From positions 372,001 through 436,000 of the forward strand of contig SMLU01000003.1 of NCBI GenBank assembly GCA_007859745.1: 64,000 bases of DNA, in the 5' to 3' direction. A program made the translations under genes and the position numbers. Under the pieces are notes generated by a model that saw only the letters and a program-made list of their open reading frames with translations, searched no databases and had not been told where the DNA came from. Positions 44,834-51,867 of the stretch are shown here, piece after piece (the stretch's first letter is position 1; each line of letters starts with the position of its first letter). Origin of the DNA: Phycisphaerae bacterium RAS1 (GTDB lineage: Bacteria > Planctomycetota > Phycisphaerae > UBA1845 > Fen-1342).

Positions 44834-45895
44834 TCAACCCGCAGAAAGCAGCGCTATGAACGGATTGATATCCAAAACATCAATGGATCCATCCAAGTTC
44901 ACGTCACAATTCTCCAGGCACGAAAACTGTGACAAATACGCGACCGGGTCCGAAATCGATAAAACGAAGGCGTTGATGTCGAGTACGTTGACGCTATCGT
45001 CGCAGTTGGCGTCGCCCGGAGTCTGGTTCGCACAGGGACACGGCGGCCCGCCAACGCATTCCGGCACGAAAATGCATTCTCCGAGGATGCAGCGCAGCTC
45101 GGTCGGCCCCCCGGGGCAATTCCCGACGCATGATGTGCCGGCGCCAAGGAACAAACCTCCCGCCGTCGCGCAATCGGCATCGCTGAGTAGCTCGCAATTG
45201 CAGCCCAACGGCTTGAGACAGCATGCGCCCGGCGCGGATGCGCCGACGATGTACGCGTCGGGCGACGCGGACCGTGTTCCCCCCGGCGCGTTCGCCGGGA
45301 GCGGGGGGTCGCCAAAGCCGAACTCAACCGTATGGCTGCCCGGGGCGGGGCAGAAGAACCCCCCGTCCGGGCCAAATTCGAGCCAGACTTCGCCACCCGA
45401 AGGTGAGGATATGTCTAAGTACCCGAGCAGGACGTGGCTGCCAGGAACTGCATCGGAGACGAATCCGTCTGCGTATGGGACGCGTCGCAGGCCGTAATGC
45501 TGCGAAAAAGCCGCGAATAGCAGAAAGTGCCCACCCGAAACCTGGGCAATCGTCCATCGGACGAGAGGCGGCCCGCCGCCGCTGAATGTCGGATTGAAAC
45601 CCGCGATTCCTGTGATGACGGCGTCCGGCGGAAGTTCCACCTGAAAATCCAGTCCGAGCCACGTCGTGAGATCATTGCCGGTCAACGCCTGAGCCCATAC
45701 GTAAACACGAGACGGCCCCACTGGAAACACCGGATCCGTCTGCTGCGGGACGGGTTGCGGCGCCGGCCGCGCCGTGTCCCACCCCTCGGCGGAGAGGTAG
45801 ACACGCAGCGTCTCGCCTCGCGCCGAAGGACTGCCGATCGAAGACGCGAAAGCGGCGCCCGAGAAACAAATCAGAGCGCGATAGAGGGCGTTCAT
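44834..45895 (-). CDS. Secreted protein with Cys-rich module and dockerin-like tail
   Basis: 353 residues from the ATG at 45895 (signal 'LICFSGAAFASSIG'). The first 220 residues form a beta-rich domain resembling secreted structural or cohesin-like modules ('DLTTWLGLDFQVELPPDAV'). A cysteine-rich GACC module (about 240-300: 'GACCLKPLGCNCELLSDADC', 'GGLFLGAGTSCVGNC') is followed by two calcium-loop repeats ('GDANCDDSVNVLDINAFVLS', 'VNLDGSIDVLDINPFIALLS'). The same tail type closes the protein at 21230-22417. It is a likely cell-surface or extracellular-matrix protein. Confidence 0.82.
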   Translation of the reverse strand: MNALYRALICFSGAAFASSIGSPSARGETLRVYLSAEGWDTARPAPQPVPQQTDPVFPVGPSRVYVWAQALTGNDLTTWLGLDFQVELPPDAVITGIAGFNPTFSGGGPPLVRWTIAQVSGGHFLLFAAFSQHYGLRRVPYADGFVSDAVPGSHVLLGYLDISSPSGGEVWLEFGPDGGFFCPAPGSHTVEFGFGDPPLPANAPGGTRSASPDAYIVGASAPGACCLKPLGCNCELLSDADCATAGGLFLGAGTSCVGNCPGGPTELRCILGECIFVPECVGGPPCPCANQTPGDANCDDSVNVLDINAFVLSISDPVAYLSQFSCLENCDVNLDGSIDVLDINPFIALLSAG

Positions 45896-46083
45896 GATCG
45901 ATTCCGCTGGAGGACTGGGAAGCGGCACCGGCGCAGAATCATTGGTCATTATCAAACGTGTGGTTAAGGCCGTCAACAGAAATCGCGAGCTACCGAATCT
46001 GACGCTTGAACCGATGCGACGACGCCTGGCCGGACCCATGGAAGTTAGAGAGAACGCGCTTCCGAAAGCCCATCGCACGTGGC

Positions 46084-49000
46084 TCACTCGCCCCTCAGCG
46101 CGAGCGTTCCAAAAAGCGACGCATCCTTTCCGCCGCTGATGCCGTCGCTCCACTCGGTCGCGCCGCGGAAGCCGTCGCCGTCATCGTCGCTGGCGGCGTA
46201 GGCGAAGCCGAGCTTCAGGCCGGGAGCGAAGCCGAAGCCGGGCAGATCGGTGAGGGGCAGTGCGATTTCGTACGAAATCCGCTGCCGACCGGCGTCATGC
46301 TTCATCGCCATCGTCGCGTCGTCGATCGGGCCGATGCGGCCGCCGGGGCCGGCGATCCAGCACCAGACCCGCGGGCCGTCGGGCGTCTGCGCGGCGCCGA
46401 ATTCGAACACGCCGTCGTAGGCGGCGGTGGCGGCGGGCTCGGGCGAGAGCGCCCACTGCACGCAGTCGCCGCGCCAGATCTGGGAGCCGCGGTTGGGTTG
46501 CGAGAACGTCTCGTCGGCGACATCGAAGGCGAAGTAGAGCGTGTCGGCGGACCAGCGGACGGCGCCGCGGATTTCGCCGGCGGGGCCGGAGGCGCGGGTG
46601 AACTCGGCGAGCTCCCATTCGGAGAGGTCGCCGTCGATGGTCGGACGGGATGTGGGTCGGGACGTCACCCCGCCGCTTGGCGCGGCGGGTTCGGACAGAT
46701 GCGAGGCCGGCGTTTCCGAACCCGCTGGGCTGTCCGAACCCGCCGGGCTGTCCGAACCCGCCGCCGGGCTGTCCGAATCCGCTGGGCTGTCCGAACCCGC
46801 CGCGCCAAGCGGCGGGTTGACGTTGCGAACCAATCGCGCCGTCTGCACCGGCACGACCGCGGCGGAAAGCGACGCCGTTCGACCGCTGGGGCCGATGACG
46901 CGCAACGTCGCGGTCTTCTCGGCATCGTTGGCGGCCGTTATTCGGAATCGCGTCGTCAGCCGCTGCTCGCCGTTGACCGTTTCAAACCGGCGATCCGCGA
47001 GTTCGGCGGTCCATCCGGGCGGCGTGTCGATCGTCACCTGTGCGAACTCGCTCAGCGACACAGCCCGCGTCACGATCGTCAGCTCCCCGCCGGCGCCTTC
47101 CTCGACGCGCACGCGGTCGGCGGCGACTTCCATGACGCAGCGGCTGGGATCGGACACGGTTGCGATGGTCTCGCTGTAGACGACGCGGCCGCCGTAGGTG
47201 AAACGCAGCAGCGCGTAGGAGTCGGGACATGCCGACGCAAAGGCCGTCGGCATGGCACCCGGCGCGATACCGAGCGGCGTATCGAATCGACACTCGCCGC
47301 CGGCGGGGATCGTGACGCGTCGTCGCCATTCCGGAATCGCCTCCCACGCCGCCAGCGGTGAAATCCAGCAGGCTTCGCCGCTGATCGGTCCGGCGGTGTT
47401 GTTGCGAATGGTCGCGGCGAGCGATTGTCCGACGGCGACGACGCGACGATCGACGGTGAGCGAGATCGGCTGCGGCAGTCGTTCGACGTCCCGGAAGGTT
47501 TCGGCGGGTTCAAGGTCTTGTGGTATGGGCTTCAAGCCCGTCGCGCGTGTTTCATCGGGCTTCCAGCCCGATGCACCATCCGAAATCACCTGCCCGCGCA
47601 GCTCGCGCAGCCAGACGCTGCCGGTGATTCTCCGCCCGGCGTCATCTGCATCGGCGTAGATCGTGATCAGCGACTCGTCACAGTAGCGTCGGCCCTCCGC
47701 GTCCGTTGTAGCCCGGCCGCCCTCGGCCGGCTGGCCCCCGGCCGATGTAGCCCGGCCGCCCTCGGCCGGTTCGTAGCGTCGGACCTCCGTGTCCGACGGC
47801 GTCTTCATCGCCGGACGCAGAGGTCCGGCGCTACGGTCGGCGCGCGCCGGCACGCGCAGCGTCGCGACGCCGACGCCGCTGGGGCGGATCGTCAGCGCCG
47901 CCGGCTCGATCGTCGCACCCAGTCCCGGCGGCGCTTCGAGCGTGAGCGTCGTATTGATCGTCCGCCCGCGGTCGTTGTTGAGAATTCGCACGGGAATATC
48001 GAGTGGCCTGTCGCCGAGTTCCGCCGAGCGCACATCGGGAACGACCGCGAGCATGCCGTTTCCGGTCGCGCCCTCGCCGCGGTTTTCGAGCCAGTATTCG
48101 CTTGGGGAAATGTCGCCATCGGTGGGGTCGAGGGAAGGGGCGTCTGCGTCCATCCGTGGCGAACGCATGTCGAATGCGACTGTTGTGAACTGGTTCGGGG
48201 ACAACGAGACGCGTGCCTGACCTGACTGGTACTCAAGGCCGGTGTTCGTCTCTGAACGCTCGGTCCCGTCTGTCAGGTACGTGCGGACGATCGGCCCGGG
48301 AAAGAAGAACGCGCATTCGCGCATCGAGCGGTCGCCGTTCCACAACCGCGCCACGAGACGCATCGCCGGGTCGCGCGCGGAATTCCAGCGCGCCTCCGGG
48401 AAGCCGACCGGCTTGAGCGCCATCAGCAGAGCGTCGCCACCCACGCGCATGCTTTCCCAGGTTTTCGGAAGGGCCGCGCCGCCTTCCCGCACGTTCAGCT
48501 TGCGGATGATGGGCGACTGATTGAACGACTGGGCGAGTGCCGACGGGCCGACCTCCGATGGACCGCCGCGCGGCACGACGGAGTATTCGAAGCCATGCGT
48601 GCCGTGCATCAGCTCTAGCGGCGAGCCGTCGGGGTGGCGCCGCGCCGGCCCGTCGATCCACACGCCTGCCGGCCAGGAGGGGCAGCTTCGCAACAGATTG
48701 ACCGCAGCGAGACCATCCTCGCGGATGTGCGCGCTGACAGAGCCGCGGTTGACGATCATTGGTCCGCGTTCGCGGCCCGCAGGCCAGCCGCGCCAATCCG
48801 AGCGCTCCGACCCGGCGATGTACAGTGCGAGTTCCTCACAGAGGCGCTCGATCGACGCATCGTCCGGAAGTTGAACGTTCGACGGCGAGTCGCTGCGCAC
48901 GGCTTCGCCGCCCGTGCCGATTGCGACGCGGAAATCCGGCAAGTTCGAATCGAATGCCAGGTCGCCGTAAGCGCGCGCGGCGCCGCGGCGGATGGTCGTC

Positions 49001-51675
49001 GTAATCCCGACGCGCGCCATCAGCTCCGCCAGGCGGTTGACGCGACCGGCGGTCGCCGGGCTTTCGTCGGCGTAGACGGCAATCTCACCGACCGCTGCGC
49101 CGCCGCGCAGCCCCGCCCACTGCCAGCACGTCTGATCCAGCGTCCACGGATCCTTCGCCGCGTCCACGTCGCGCGAGAACGGCCGGCCGATGACCGCGCC
49201 GCCGGTCTGATACACCGGCCGCAACCCCTCGGCGGCGAAGGGGAACTCGACGCGCAGAAGCTGGCTGCGGCCGCGCCAGTCGATGATCTCCGTGCGGCAG
49301 TCGATCCGCGGCGGACTGCTGCGCAGCGTGATCGTCTGGCGCTTGGTGAATTCGGGGTAGTCGGCTTCGATCGTCACGCTCTCGGCGGCTGACGCGCTGG
49401 TGTCGCCGCTTCGGTCAGAACGCGAGGCGCCAGCGAGCGCGGCCGGGAGAGACGCCCCGGAATCCGGCGAAACGGAGGCCGGCGCTGTCGCGAGGGGCGT
49501 TTCCGCCGCGGGCGCTTGCTGGCGCTGCGCGTTCTGAAATGCCGAAACGGCCGCCTCCGCGCCAGCGCGCGGAACAGATGCGCTCACCAGCCGGGCGCGA
49601 ACACTTGTGCCGCTGCGGCGTTTTCCGGTTGGAGCCAGGTGCCAGGGCCCTTCGCCGTGGCCGGGGAGCGATTCGTATTCTTCGCAGAGTACGACATCGT
49701 TGCCTGGGCCGCGGAGCAGTTCGCGCGATTCGCGCTTGTCGAACAGGCTGGTGATCGCCCCGCCATGAGACAGCGCGACTCTCACGCGCAGGTCGTCGTT
49801 TTCGAGCGTGACGACGTCGCCGTCGATGGTCTTTTTCGGTTGTGGCGTCGCGAGCGCGAGCTCGCGCAGATTGACGAGCTTGTAGCCGATGCCGGGCAGG
49901 TCTTTGGTCAGGCACGCACGCAACTCGCCGTCCACTTCGACGGTGATTTCCGCGTCCCGCCGCACGCCGGTCGAGTTCCAGACGATGTGCGTCGGCGTTG
50001 CGGGTGGAACGGGCGTCTCGCCCGTCGCCGGGACGGGCGAGACGCCCGTTCCACCCGTCGCCGGGACGGGCGAGATGTCCGTCCTACCCGCGGCGGACCG
50101 GCCGGGGGCGGCCGGGCTACCATCCTGGCCGGGGGCGGCCGGGCTACATTCCAAATAGGCCAGCGCGCGGTCGCGAATCTGCGTGGCGATGTCCAGGCAA
50201 TCGCGATAGGCGTAGAGCACGTCGATGTACACCTGATCCGACATCGACCCCGTCACGGCGTCATGATGGGCACAGAACAGAAGCTGCCGCCAGGCGCGGT
50301 CGATGCCGCGCCACGGGTAGTTCGCTCCCTCCAGCATCGCGATCGTCGCGAAAATCTCCGCGTCGCGCAGCGTCGTTTCGCACGCCCGCTGCGCCAGCTT
50401 CAGATCGGCGAACGACACCGGGCAGCCGGTGTAGATCGGGTTCATGTCGCGCGTAATCACCGGCACGACGATCTCTCGCCGCGCGATTTCCTGACGCACG
50501 GCCTCAAAATACGCCTCCGGCGTGCTGATGAGTGCCTTGGGCGAGAGGTACTTCGCGTTCCATTCGCGCACCGCCTGCCCCAGGTTCTCCATCGGGCGGA
50601 TGAAGTCGCTGTGCATCGGCAGCATGACATGATGCGTCAGCGCCGGCCGTTTCAGGTCTTCGAACATCGCCGCCATCAGCGCTTCGCGGACGCCGGCGTC
50701 GTCGGGGGCGCGGTTCGTACCCGGCGCGAGCTTTTCGTACGCGTAGCCGTAGTGCCCGGTCATGTAGTGCGTCAGGATGTTCCGCCCGTCGGGCGACATC
50801 CAGAAGAACTCCGACGGGAAGTTCACCTGCTCGCGCGGGGCGCCCCACTGGTGAAACGGCCCGCGGGCGAACGCCCCGGCGGTGTGGCCGGTATCGACCA
50901 TCACGCTCGGAAACGACGGGTCGTGGCCGAAGACGTCGCATTGCCAGAAGACCGACCCGTCGCCGCCGAGGATTTCCTTCTGGAAGAGTGTGCCGTAGAC
51001 GGCGTTGCGGATGGTGGATTCGAGGCTGATGAGCGTCGATGAGAGCTCGTTGTACGTACCGCCGACGATGCTGATGCGGCCCTCGCGGATGCGTCGCAGC
51101 AGCTCGTCGCGCTGCTGCGGCCGGGCCTCCATGAACGTCTTGAGATAGGGAAGCTGGTGCAGCGCGGCCCTGTAATCCGGGTCTTTTTCCACCAGCCGCA
51201 GGTTTTCCTGCACCAGCGTCAACCCCGGCGCGACGTTGGAGGCCAGCTTGTAGCCCGTCTCGCAATAATGCGCCTGCGTGTTCCACCAGACCGGGTCGTA
51301 GTGGAAGCCGGGGATGAAGTGCATCACCCAATCGCGATCGGGCGGCGCGAGCGTGACGGTTGCCTGCGATTCGACACCGTCCGACTCGCGCAGAAGGATC
51401 GTGAGCGGCGTCTTGCCGTCGCAAAGTGACAGCGGGATTTCAACGGCGAGCGATTCACCCGAGGTGAACCTGCCGCCGGCGCCGCCGACATCCTGCTGCG
51501 ACCGCGTCGCATTCTGCTCATCGAGCACACGAACGCGCAGCGGCGTTGCCAGCGCGCGGGTTGCGACGAGGTGAACGATCGCCTTCGAATCATCCTGCGG
51601 CCCGCGAACCAGCGACGTCGGCCGGACCTCGCTCGGAAAGACAGCCAGGAGCGCCACGAGTACGAAAACGTGCAC
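46084..51675 (-). CDS. Very large secreted GH38 alpha-mannosidase with C-terminal CBM9-like domain
   Basis: About 1863 residues from a GTG at 51675 (AGGG six bases before; signal 'VFVLVALLAVFPSEVRPTS'); an ATG at 51789 would start in repeat DNA. GH38 catalytic domain: 'PGFHYDPVWWNTQAHY' (zinc His-x-Asp, near 124) and 'VFWQCDVFGHDPSFPSVM' (nucleophile Asp, about 245), and 'FCAHHDAVTGSMSDQVYIDV' (about 470). The middle and C-terminal beta-domains of GH38 follow, then beta-sandwich modules and a C-terminal CBM9-like sugar-binding domain (about 1675-1860: 'IDGDLSEWELAEFT', 'DTLYFAFDVADETF'). Five repeat-derived inserts interrupt it at about 510-558, 712-754, 1280-1331, 1366-1385 and 1620-1669. 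The reading frame stays open through all five. Confidence 0.88.
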   Translation of the reverse strand: MHVFVLVALLAVFPSEVRPTSLVRGPQDDSKAIVHLVATRALATPLRVRVLDEQNATRSQQDVGGAGGRFTSGESLAVEIPLSLCDGKTPLTILLRESDGVESQATVTLAPPDRDWVMHFIPGFHYDPVWWNTQAHYCETGYKLASNVAPGLTLVQENLRLVEKDPDYRAALHQLPYLKTFMEARPQQRDELLRRIREGRISIVGGTYNELSSTLISLESTIRNAVYGTLFQKEILGGDGSVFWQCDVFGHDPSFPSVMVDTGHTAGAFARGPFHQWGAPREQVNFPSEFFWMSPDGRNILTHYMTGHYGYAYEKLAPGTNRAPDDAGVREALMAAMFEDLKRPALTHHVMLPMHSDFIRPMENLGQAVREWNAKYLSPKALISTPEAYFEAVRQEIARREIVVPVITRDMNPIYTGCPVSFADLKLAQRACETTLRDAEIFATIAMLEGANYPWRGIDRAWRQLLFCAHHDAVTGSMSDQVYIDVLYAYRDCLDIATQIRDRALAYLECSPAAPGQDGSPAAPGRSAAGRTDISPVPATGGTGVSPVPATGETPVPPATPTHIVWNSTGVRRDAEITVEVDGELRACLTKDLPGIGYKLVNLRELALATPQPKKTIDGDVVTLENDDLRVRVALSHGGAITSLFDKRESRELLRGPGNDVVLCEEYESLPGHGEGPWHLAPTGKRRSGTSVRARLVSASVPRAGAEAAVSAFQNAQRQQAPAAETPLATAPASVSPDSGASLPAALAGASRSDRSGDTSASAAESVTIEADYPEFTKRQTITLRSSPPRIDCRTEIIDWRGRSQLLRVEFPFAAEGLRPVYQTGGAVIGRPFSRDVDAAKDPWTLDQTCWQWAGLRGGAAVGEIAVYADESPATAGRVNRLAELMARVGITTTIRRGAARAYGDLAFDSNLPDFRVAIGTGGEAVRSDSPSNVQLPDDASIERLCEELALYIAGSERSDWRGWPAGRERGPMIVNRGSVSAHIREDGLAAVNLLRSCPSWPAGVWIDGPARRHPDGSPLELMHGTHGFEYSVVPRGGPSEVGPSALAQSFNQSPIIRKLNVREGGAALPKTWESMRVGGDALLMALKPVGFPEARWNSARDPAMRLVARLWNGDRSMRECAFFFPGPIVRTYLTDGTERSETNTGLEYQSGQARVSLSPNQFTTVAFDMRSPRMDADAPSLDPTDGDISPSEYWLENRGEGATGNGMLAVVPDVRSAELGDRPLDIPVRILNNDRGRTINTTLTLEAPPGLGATIEPAALTIRPSGVGVATLRVPARADRSAGPLRPAMKTPSDTEVRRYEPAEGGRATSAGGQPAEGGRATTDAEGRRYCDESLITIYADADDAGRRITGSVWLRELRGQVISDGASGWKPDETRATGLKPIPQDLEPAETFRDVERLPQPISLTVDRRVVAVGQSLAATIRNNTAGPISGEACWISPLAAWEAIPEWRRRVTIPAGGECRFDTPLGIAPGAMPTAFASACPDSYALLRFTYGGRVVYSETIATVSDPSRCVMEVAADRVRVEEGAGGELTIVTRAVSLSEFAQVTIDTPPGWTAELADRRFETVNGEQRLTTRFRITAANDAEKTATLRVIGPSGRTASLSAAVVPVQTARLVRNVNPPLGAAGSDSPADSDSPAAGSDSPAGSDSPAGSETPASHLSEPAAPSGGVTSRPTSRPTIDGDLSEWELAEFTRASGPAGEIRGAVRWSADTLYFAFDVADETFSQPNRGSQIWRGDCVQWALSPEPAATAAYDGVFEFGAAQTPDGPRVWCWIAGPGGRIGPIDDATMAMKHDAGRQRISYEIALPLTDLPGFGFAPGLKLGFAYAASDDDGDGFRGATEWSDGISGGKDASLFGTLALRGE
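46669..46816. repeat. In-frame palindromic insert in GH38 with tandem core
   Basis: Exact inverted repeats of 27 bases (46669-46695 and 46790-46816) enclose a degenerate tandem CCGAACCCGC-(C/T)GGGCTGT core, translated as SDSPAG units (residues about 1620-1669). It forms the linker before the CBM9-like domain. Confidence 0.92.
47521..47578. repeat. In-frame short palindromic insert in GH38
   Basis: TGGTATGGGCTTCAAGCCCG at one end and the inverted form CGGGCTTCCAGCCCGATGCACCA at the other, translated as about 20 residues (1366-1385). The leading half-word recurs at 62147-62165, where it contains the start codon of the CX4CH protein gene. Confidence 0.75.
47683..47834. repeat. In-frame family A / family D insert in GH38
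   Basis: Three family A hairpins (47683-47705, 47773-47799 and, inverted, 47810-47834) surround two family D words GTAGCCCGGCCGCCCTCGG (about 47708-47727 and 47746-47770). The block begins GTAGC and ends GCTAC and is translated as residues about 1280-1331 including 'SDTEVRRYEPAEGGRATS'. Confidence 0.9.
49415..49538. repeat. In-frame family E insert in GH38
   Basis: Arms of 26 bases (49415-49440, 49513-49538) are inverted repeats with few mismatches, containing the GAACGCG-GCGCCAGC words of family E. Translated as residues about 712-754, an Ala/Pro/Ser-rich stretch between two beta-domains. Confidence 0.9.
50002..50147. repeat. In-frame family C / family D insert in GH38
   Basis: Two-and-a-half family C units (GGGTGGAACGGGCGTCTCGCCC and inverted partners, 50002-50089) are followed by two family D words (about 50101-50122 and 50124-50147). 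Translated as residues about 510-558, immediately after the catalytic and three-helix part and before 'THIVWNSTG' of the GH38 C-terminal domain. Confidence 0.92.
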
Positions 51676-51711
51676 GCGGAACCCTCGCGTTAGAGGCGTT
51701 CTGATTTTTCT

Positions 51712-51867
51712 GTAGCGTCGGACCGCTGCGTTCGACGCTGAAATCGCCGTCGGACACAGAGGTCCGACGCTACAATCGCCGTCGGACACAGAGGTCCGAC
51801 GCTACAATCGCCGTCGGACACGGAGGTCCGACGCTACAATCGCCGTCGGACACGGAGGTCCGACGGC
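51712..51867. repeat. Tandem array of family A hairpins, 32-bp period
   Basis: One diverged copy (51712-51741) and four regular units with starts 32 bases apart (GTCGGAC at 51749, 51781, 51813, 51845). Each unit is GTCGGAC-ACAGAG or ACGGAG-GTCCGAC plus GCTACAATCGCC. Repeats are contiguous with no variable spacers, so it is not a CRISPR array. It lies between the PcrA stop codon and the GH38 start. Confidence 0.95.

Follow-up and report, generated by a model that had tools for sequence, protein, structure and literature searches.

The GH38 gene and its five inserts

The window analysed here is a stretch of 64,000 nt (G000:C3:372001-436000) from genome G000, which comprises 5.5 Mb in 7 contigs and is 99% complete. 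On its minus strand lies a frame (46084-51789) that is open throughout and has 1901 amino acids when counted from the farthest start; a home-made gene finder places the gene start at 51657 (-). The Pfam domains of the product (GH38N, mid and GH38C) mark it as alpha-mannosidase-like. The features of the locus are as follows, the net gains of the inserts being crude estimates relative to orthologues:

46084..51657, minus strand: GH38 alpha-mannosidase-like gene with five REP clusters, assigned by Pfam; the frame is open back to 51789
46667..46818, minus strand: insert 1, inverted R5 pair with short tandem copies in between; net gain about 58 residues
about 47520..47578, minus strand: insert 2, R4 unit and its inverted partner (partner recognised by eye); net gain about 33 residues
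47683..47834, minus strand: insert 3, units in the order R1, R2, R2, followed by an inverted pair of R1; net gain about 49 residues
49415..49537, minus strand: insert 4, inverted R6 pair, within the GH38C span; net gain about 58 residues
50004..50147, minus strand: insert 5, three R3 units, two of them as an inverted pair, then two R2 units; net gain about 43 residues
51712..51869, no strand assigned: five R1 units in an array that lies upstream of the GH38 gene and extends to the end of the next gene; absent from the earlier note

Five in-frame repeat blocks had been described in this gene by the earlier note, and all of them are present, with edges shifted by a few nt and the frame open. In all, they contain 15 units that belong to six repeat families (R1-R6), and every block includes one inverted pair or more (in insert 1, for example, the R5 units are at 46667-46691 and 46794-46818). 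Together the blocks span about 209 codons, close to the 200 or so repeat-derived residues estimated before. Each block had also been placed in a linker between domains; this does not hold for 49415-49537, which falls within residues 663-874, the span of Pfam GH38C. Elsewhere in the window, the frame at 44834-46153 (-) has a C-terminal part that resembles a dockerin-type repeat by eye, and the gene finder made no call there.

Repeat families and their distribution in the genome

R1 and R2 units consist of a GTAG foot and a stem of 7-8 bp, and R3 and R4 units have a GTGG foot. R5 and R6 units are palindromes found in inverted pairs, with no GTAG or GTGG foot in the patterns used. The families were counted in a census sample of 464 kb, made up of the window and 20 evenly spaced 20-kb stretches not picked for repeats, and the counts were compared with those in the reversed sequence. 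Pattern matches numbered 76 vs. 0 for R5 (a count that takes both strands, because R5 is a near-palindrome), 41 vs. 0 for R3, 40 vs. 1 for R1, 34 vs. 0 for R4 (28 of them at 5 mismatches, which may be R3), 10 vs. 1 for R2 and 13 vs. 3 for R6, the weakest family.

The 464 kb contain 160 units, including inverted pairs, and 119 of these units are intergenic. In the 20 stretches alone (the 400-kb sample), where predicted coding sequence makes up 77% of the bases, 107 of 129 units are intergenic, 9 lie over a gene end, and 13 are inside 9 predicted genes (two of the 13 being weak, R2 with 4 mismatches). Intragenic copies, which the earlier note had proposed to count, thus exist but are scarce, as expected if most genic insertions are purged; GH38, with 15 units in one gene, is an outlier. 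Of 11 R1/R2 units that overlap gene ends, 7 provide the stop codon through the TAG of their foot. Of the 6 frames of each consensus unit, 5 or 6 contain no stop; therefore frame neutrality as a selected property, proposed before, is unnecessary, because composition suffices. R1-like tandem arrays were also seen at G000:C4:394458-394729 and C1:1645796-1646503, with steps of 30 bp and 165 bp, respectively. The repeat that flanks the purH RAYT is rare, with no exact match in 464 kb and three loose matches in the 400-kb sample.

Judged by these sequence features, the GH38 inserts are REP elements, either GTAG/GTGG-footed or palindromic hairpins, and GH38 by itself is a rich instance of intragenic REPs, a kind already known.

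Orthologues and structure model of GH38

The 80 GH38 loci that were fetched come mostly from planctomycete bins. The clean gaps for which an orthologue alignment had been suggested are found: six orthologues (L041, L042, L044, L045, L046 and L083), which are 46-53% identical in the best segment, have a gap, or else a linker that is much shorter, at all five blocks; the row L043, in the wrong frame, was left out of this comparison. For a wider alignment, 7 + 31 sequences were chosen from the 80 loci. At block 4, none of 37 aligned orthologues has residues, and at block 5, none of the 37 reaches 80% of the span, one of them filling 61% of the columns.

A structure model of residues 140-1010, which covers inserts 4 and 5, has a mean pLDDT of 71.9 and a pTM of 0.75, and replaced an earlier, poor fold from 7 sequences (mean pLDDT 47.3). 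Both inserts appear as low-confidence loops on a confident fold, with pLDDT of about 23-38 over most of each, although this low confidence is partly built in, because few relatives have residues there. These comparisons support the reading that mobile palindromic repeats have entered GH38 in frame, with orthologues lacking them.

RAYT transposases flanked by the same repeats

Matches in G000 number 20 for Y1_Tnp and 25 for the model of REP-associated tyrosine transposases (NF047646). Of the six repeat families, four were found on the flanks of a RAYT in G000. R1 flanks a free-standing RAYT at C1:3081730 and, weakly, its neighbor at C1:3087005, and R5 flanks a free-standing RAYT at C4:706. The other two are embedded in other genes: R2 flanks the RAYT at C1:699246, which lies in frame inside a gcvP frame of 1228 amino acids, and R3 flanks the RAYT at C3:131537, in frame inside an ileS frame of 1436 amino acids. 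Neither R2 nor R3 flanks any other RAYT among the 26 RAYT loci with scanned flanks, and no cognate RAYT was found in G000 for R4 or R6. The valS frame (1581 amino acids) and the purH frame (961 amino acids) of G000 likewise hold RAYTs. One purH was found in this genome, and one ileS and one valS frame, plus two further frames of the same superfamily.

The earlier note had compared the GH38 blocks with the palindromic elements of Rickettsia and assigned them to the lineage itself. In-frame entry of mobile palindromes stands, but the elements are not an invention of the lineage like those of Rickettsia: they are GTAG/GTGG REPs, four families of which flank RAYTs, and the Rickettsia elements were set aside as a model on account of these feet and the cognate RAYTs.

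Several embedded RAYTs score below the NF047646 cut-off of 80, for example those in ileS (66.3), purH (66.3) and valS (24.7) of G000, the ileS one being also below the Pfam cut-off, as well as those in leuS of G057, the RarA-like gene of G023 and alaS of G018. The cut-off is exceeded by the gcvP RAYTs of G000, G010 and G109, and by those in leuS of G056 and in a methylase of G051.

Some further arrangements were seen in G000. Apart from the RAYT, the valS frame (L143:4680-9425:+) contains a cluster of three R1 units near residue 457, and the ileS frame (L142:4474-8784:-) an R3 unit near residue 1090. The free R5-flanked RAYT (L145, C4:1-1200; also L034) has a 12-unit R5 array at 41-bp steps on one side and three units on the other. 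At G000:C1:2614693-2619377 (L035-L039), four RAYT-like copies lie within 5 kb, three of them near-identical and in direct repeat.

Embedded RAYTs across the order and the phylum

With weaker matches included, 63 host genes with an in-frame RAYT were read in 46 of the 114 genomes of the order: purH (26), alaS (12), ileS (10), valS (4), DNA methylases (4), leuS (3), gcvP (3) and a RarA-like gene (1). Hosts were named by NCBIfam/Pfam for a part, and otherwise by BLASTP to those or by reading (one methylase, in G084). Among the matches listed in 27 genomes of the family, RAYTs lie in frames of 550-1686 amino acids, and the hosts read there are ileS, purH, gcvP, a RarA-like ATPase and alaS, in one case with two RAYTs in one frame. 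This alaS frame of 1686 amino acids (L206:4277-9337:-, in G018:C11) carries two different RAYTs at two places. A purH match is present in 102 genomes, and in 26 of the 102 a RAYT lies in the same purH loop, as part of a single unbroken frame in 20 cases, of a frame cut by contig ends in five, and of a purH broken into two frames in one (G010).

The RAYTs fall into two groups. The first, defined by matches to the ileS-embedded RAYT of G000, has 51 matches over the 114 genomes, 40 of them at 60 bits or more, and 37 of these 40 are in host frames (purH 19, ileS 10, gcvP 3, leuS 2, MmeI-like methylases 2, RarA-like 1), which leaves three outside host frames in the order. The second group, distantly related to the first, has 29 matches of at least 60 bits in the 114 genomes, of which 18 are in host frames (purH 7, alaS 6, valS 4, leuS 1); of the remainder, one is methylase-like by eye and ten are free or not assigned, six of the ten without fetched sequence. 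The frames of the second group left out as free or without an assigned host are G059:C21 (methylase-like by eye), G058:C75, G091:C20, G018:C5 and G084:C419. A long frame of 658 amino acids in G018:C17, in which no host was seen, was taken as spurious and excluded.

Outside the order, the first group has many free relatives: in a phylum sample of 392 genomes, 14 of the 22 non-own matches at 60 bits or more lie in frames shorter than 450 amino acids. The other eight are in frames above 450 amino acids, five of which are named hosts (valS 2, leuS, alaS and a flavoprotein); no host was recognized in the phylum-sample frames of G160:C32a, G233 and G174. Weaker matches in the phylum sample were placed in alaS, in a helicase and in four methylases. 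Restriction/DNA methylase frames with an in-frame Y1 transposase were also seen outside the order, in G281, G183, G146 and G369 (L272, L273, L276 and L277).

As read from these frames, the two RAYT groups of the order are largely predicted in-frame internal segments of PurH, AlaS, IleS, ValS, LeuS and GcvP, located at recurring loops. We consider it quite probable that the five GH38 inserts are REP clusters placed by RAYT/TnpA_REP transposases and that, more widely, the two RAYT groups reside in frame in housekeeping enzymes at recurring loops, where they would be frame-locked.

Insertion sites

In PurH, the residues that separate '...DAxAAxEL' from 'IKHTNACG' number 16-18 in five genomes and 30-58 in four; in the eight RAYT-bearing genomes that were measured, they number 242-545. 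The insert of G006 sits between residues 269 and 278 of 3zzm. The second RAYT group occupies the same place in four more genomes, and a single PurH loop hosts two distantly related RAYT groups. In the purH of G023, G020, G002 and G003 (L207, L216, L217 and L228), the loop is larger by only some 14-42 residues; it is possible that these slightly enlarged loops are REP-only inserts or scars. IleS has one site between residues 212 and 219 of 8c8v and a second directly before PYKTCIVLGH, and the AlaS and ValS sites are recurrent, too. All sites examined in solved structures are short loops.

Such recurrence might reflect tolerance only. REPs and RAYTs would insert randomly, survival being limited to the few loops of long conserved enzymes that permit it, and the recurrence of loops would then have no bearing on targeting or homing. 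This is possible, although we do not favor it: the scarcity of units in genes and the short loops fit it, as do the two distantly related groups in one purH loop. However, a random draw from one pool of elements is not expected to yield RAYT lineages that group by host gene, as they do in both groups, with 6 label changes in the first (the minimum, vs. 22.6 in shuffles) and 4 in the second (minimum 3, vs. 11.7 in shuffles). It is also at odds with a first group that is almost never free in the order (3/40).

History of RAYTs and their hosts

Clustering by host gene is also what would be seen if each of purH, ileS and alaS had acquired its RAYT in a single event early in the history of the order, with retention or loss since then and no spread between genomes. 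In the pair G107/G108, which share a genus code, dS is equal in the RAYT (0.644) and the C part of PurH (0.642) and higher in the N part (0.913), and both the equal dS and a weak agreement of trimmed purH trees (9 of 19 rows, rho 0.35, 41/999) speak for such vertical inheritance. A single clade of the ileS RAYTs of family f8 is likewise not rejected (p-AU 0.083). However, one clade is rejected for the purH RAYTs of family f1 (p-AU 0.018) and barely so for those of family f7 (p-AU 0.049), and purH holds both RAYT groups. RAYT and host distances disagree in the full sets, for which host distances are rough (permutations as high: purH 734/999, ileS 603/999), and the trimmed ileS trees (8 of 10 rows) show no agreement (370/999). 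Old vertical inheritance without spread is therefore rather unlikely in our estimation. It is likely that purH received a RAYT more than once, because the one-clade tests fail for f1 and, barely, for f7, and the comparisons suggest that RAYTs may have spread between genomes.

State of the embedded RAYTs

By a crude pattern search, the HUH pattern is present in 37/37 RAYTs of the first group and the Tyr pattern in 36/37, the one miss being cut by a contig end; in the second group the counts are 5/6 and 6/6, and the RAYT of G026 is without one HUH histidine. Usable dN/dS values come from the one pair G107/G108, with 0.13 for the RAYT, 0.11 for the C part of PurH and 0.34 for the N part, and with 0.21 and 0.94 for the 5' and 3' linkers; three alaS pairs have low dN, with dS high or saturated. 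An in-frame ATG is found near the RAYT start in 6/43, and GTG or TTG in more. The density of foot-plus-hairpin matches in RAYT flanks is six to seven times that of host control windows, and at least one tagged hairpin accompanies 33/43 RAYTs, with neither flank having one in the other 10/43.

Conserved motifs, repeated hits on the same genes and purifying selection in the one pair could be taken to mean that the RAYT is a domesticated domain, kept for a useful function in the host enzyme rather than by selfish persistence. We regard this as improbable: the RAYT is present in only part of the genomes (purH 26/102) and at different sites, and constraint alone is not proof of function, because an insert that folds badly would be purged, too. 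Inteins and bypassing elements are known inside genes, and the inserts might likewise be removed by protein splicing or bypassed by the ribosome, never becoming part of the working enzyme. This is very unlikely, as 20 of the 26 purH cases keep an open frame across both the REP linkers and the RAYT, which bypass would not need, and the Pfam/NCBIfam hits listed for the host frames scanned include no intein domain. Assembly error or contamination hardly comes into question: many genomes other than G000 are fragmented, and contig ends cut five purH cases, but G000 itself is in 7 contigs at 99% completeness, and 46 genomes show this architecture, the RAYT being flanked on either side by host homology within a single frame.

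Proposed mechanism and significance

For GH38, the direct support for in-frame REP clusters consists of the family membership of the units, the inverted pairs, the gaps in orthologues and the open frame, with two inserts seen as low-confidence loops. In the mechanism that we propose, RAYT/TnpA_REP transposases would have put REP clusters into GH38, and the copies now seen would be those with a frame-keeping length and no stop, translated as extra loops. By the same process, a REP-RAYT-REP insert without a stop would become an internal domain of the host enzyme. The host enzymes, of the PurH, AlaS, IleS, ValS, LeuS and GcvP type, are essential. The host's need for the downstream half would then keep the transposase frame open and expressed, i.e., frame-locked, and partial deletions of the embedded RAYT would be lethal, as in inteins, but without splicing. 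The fusion, or a fragment of it, might still act on REP DNA.

We hypothesize further, and give this slightly less than an even chance, that REP-RAYT elements are unspliced, frame-locked domains of essential enzymes that spread between genomes into the same purH, alaS, ileS and valS loops, in the manner of homing inteins, and drive genome-wide REP families, including those of GH38.

If a transposase sits in frame in an essential enzyme, host selection would keep its frame open and expressed, which would bear on the persistence of RAYTs. If the proposal is true, a foreign HUH nuclease domain, which transposase surveys have filtered out as fusions or errors, would be part of large housekeeping enzymes throughout a bacterial order. 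The purH loop occurs empty, slightly enlarged and RAYT-filled, and therefore offers natural replicates for the study of in-frame gene invasion.

Comparison with known systems

Inteins and homing introns are selfish, reside in frame or within genes, and recur at given sites of conserved genes, as do the embedded RAYTs. In contrast to them, the RAYT-bearing frames have no splicing domain listed in the scans, and the enzyme is an HUH transposase; the likeness to inteins is one of habit. The palindromic elements of Rickettsia are likewise palindromic repeats in frame inside protein genes, whereas the elements described here are short tagged units that are clustered and accompanied by RAYTs; the Rickettsia elements are also mentioned in PMC3733652.

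Known RAYT/TnpA_REP transposases (NF047646, PF01797), as described in sections of PMC6006769 and PMC8266576, share with those reported here the HUH and Tyr motifs, the flanking REPs and the kinship with IS200/IS605. They are treated there as separate genes, whereas the RAYTs reported here form internal parts of host enzymes; according to PMC6006769, a few TnpA_Y1 proteins of unexpected length were discarded, being regarded as fusions or annotation errors. In the open-access literature, at the level of titles and the starts of abstracts, we found no description of in-frame RAYTs inside host genes, which is no proof of absence.

The closest counterpart of the GH38 inserts is the GTAG REP superfamily, for which intragenic copies have been described (Di Nocera, 2013; PMC3733652). 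Going by its sections on REPs, the two are alike in the combination of foot and hairpin, high copy number, chiefly intergenic location, dimers, and RAYTs flanked by the same repeats, and also in feet that supply TAG stops to genes, inserts of 20-82 residues, and double inserts in one gene. That paper lists Planctomycetes and the verrucomicrobium O. terrae, which has GTGG feet. The GH38 gene differs in that a single gene has repeats of six families at five sites. The same sections contain REPs inside genes, whereas a RAYT in frame inside a host gene is absent from them and is a feature of the present system. The surprise came when the repeats were traced to transposases: RAYTs resident in frame in housekeeping enzymes.
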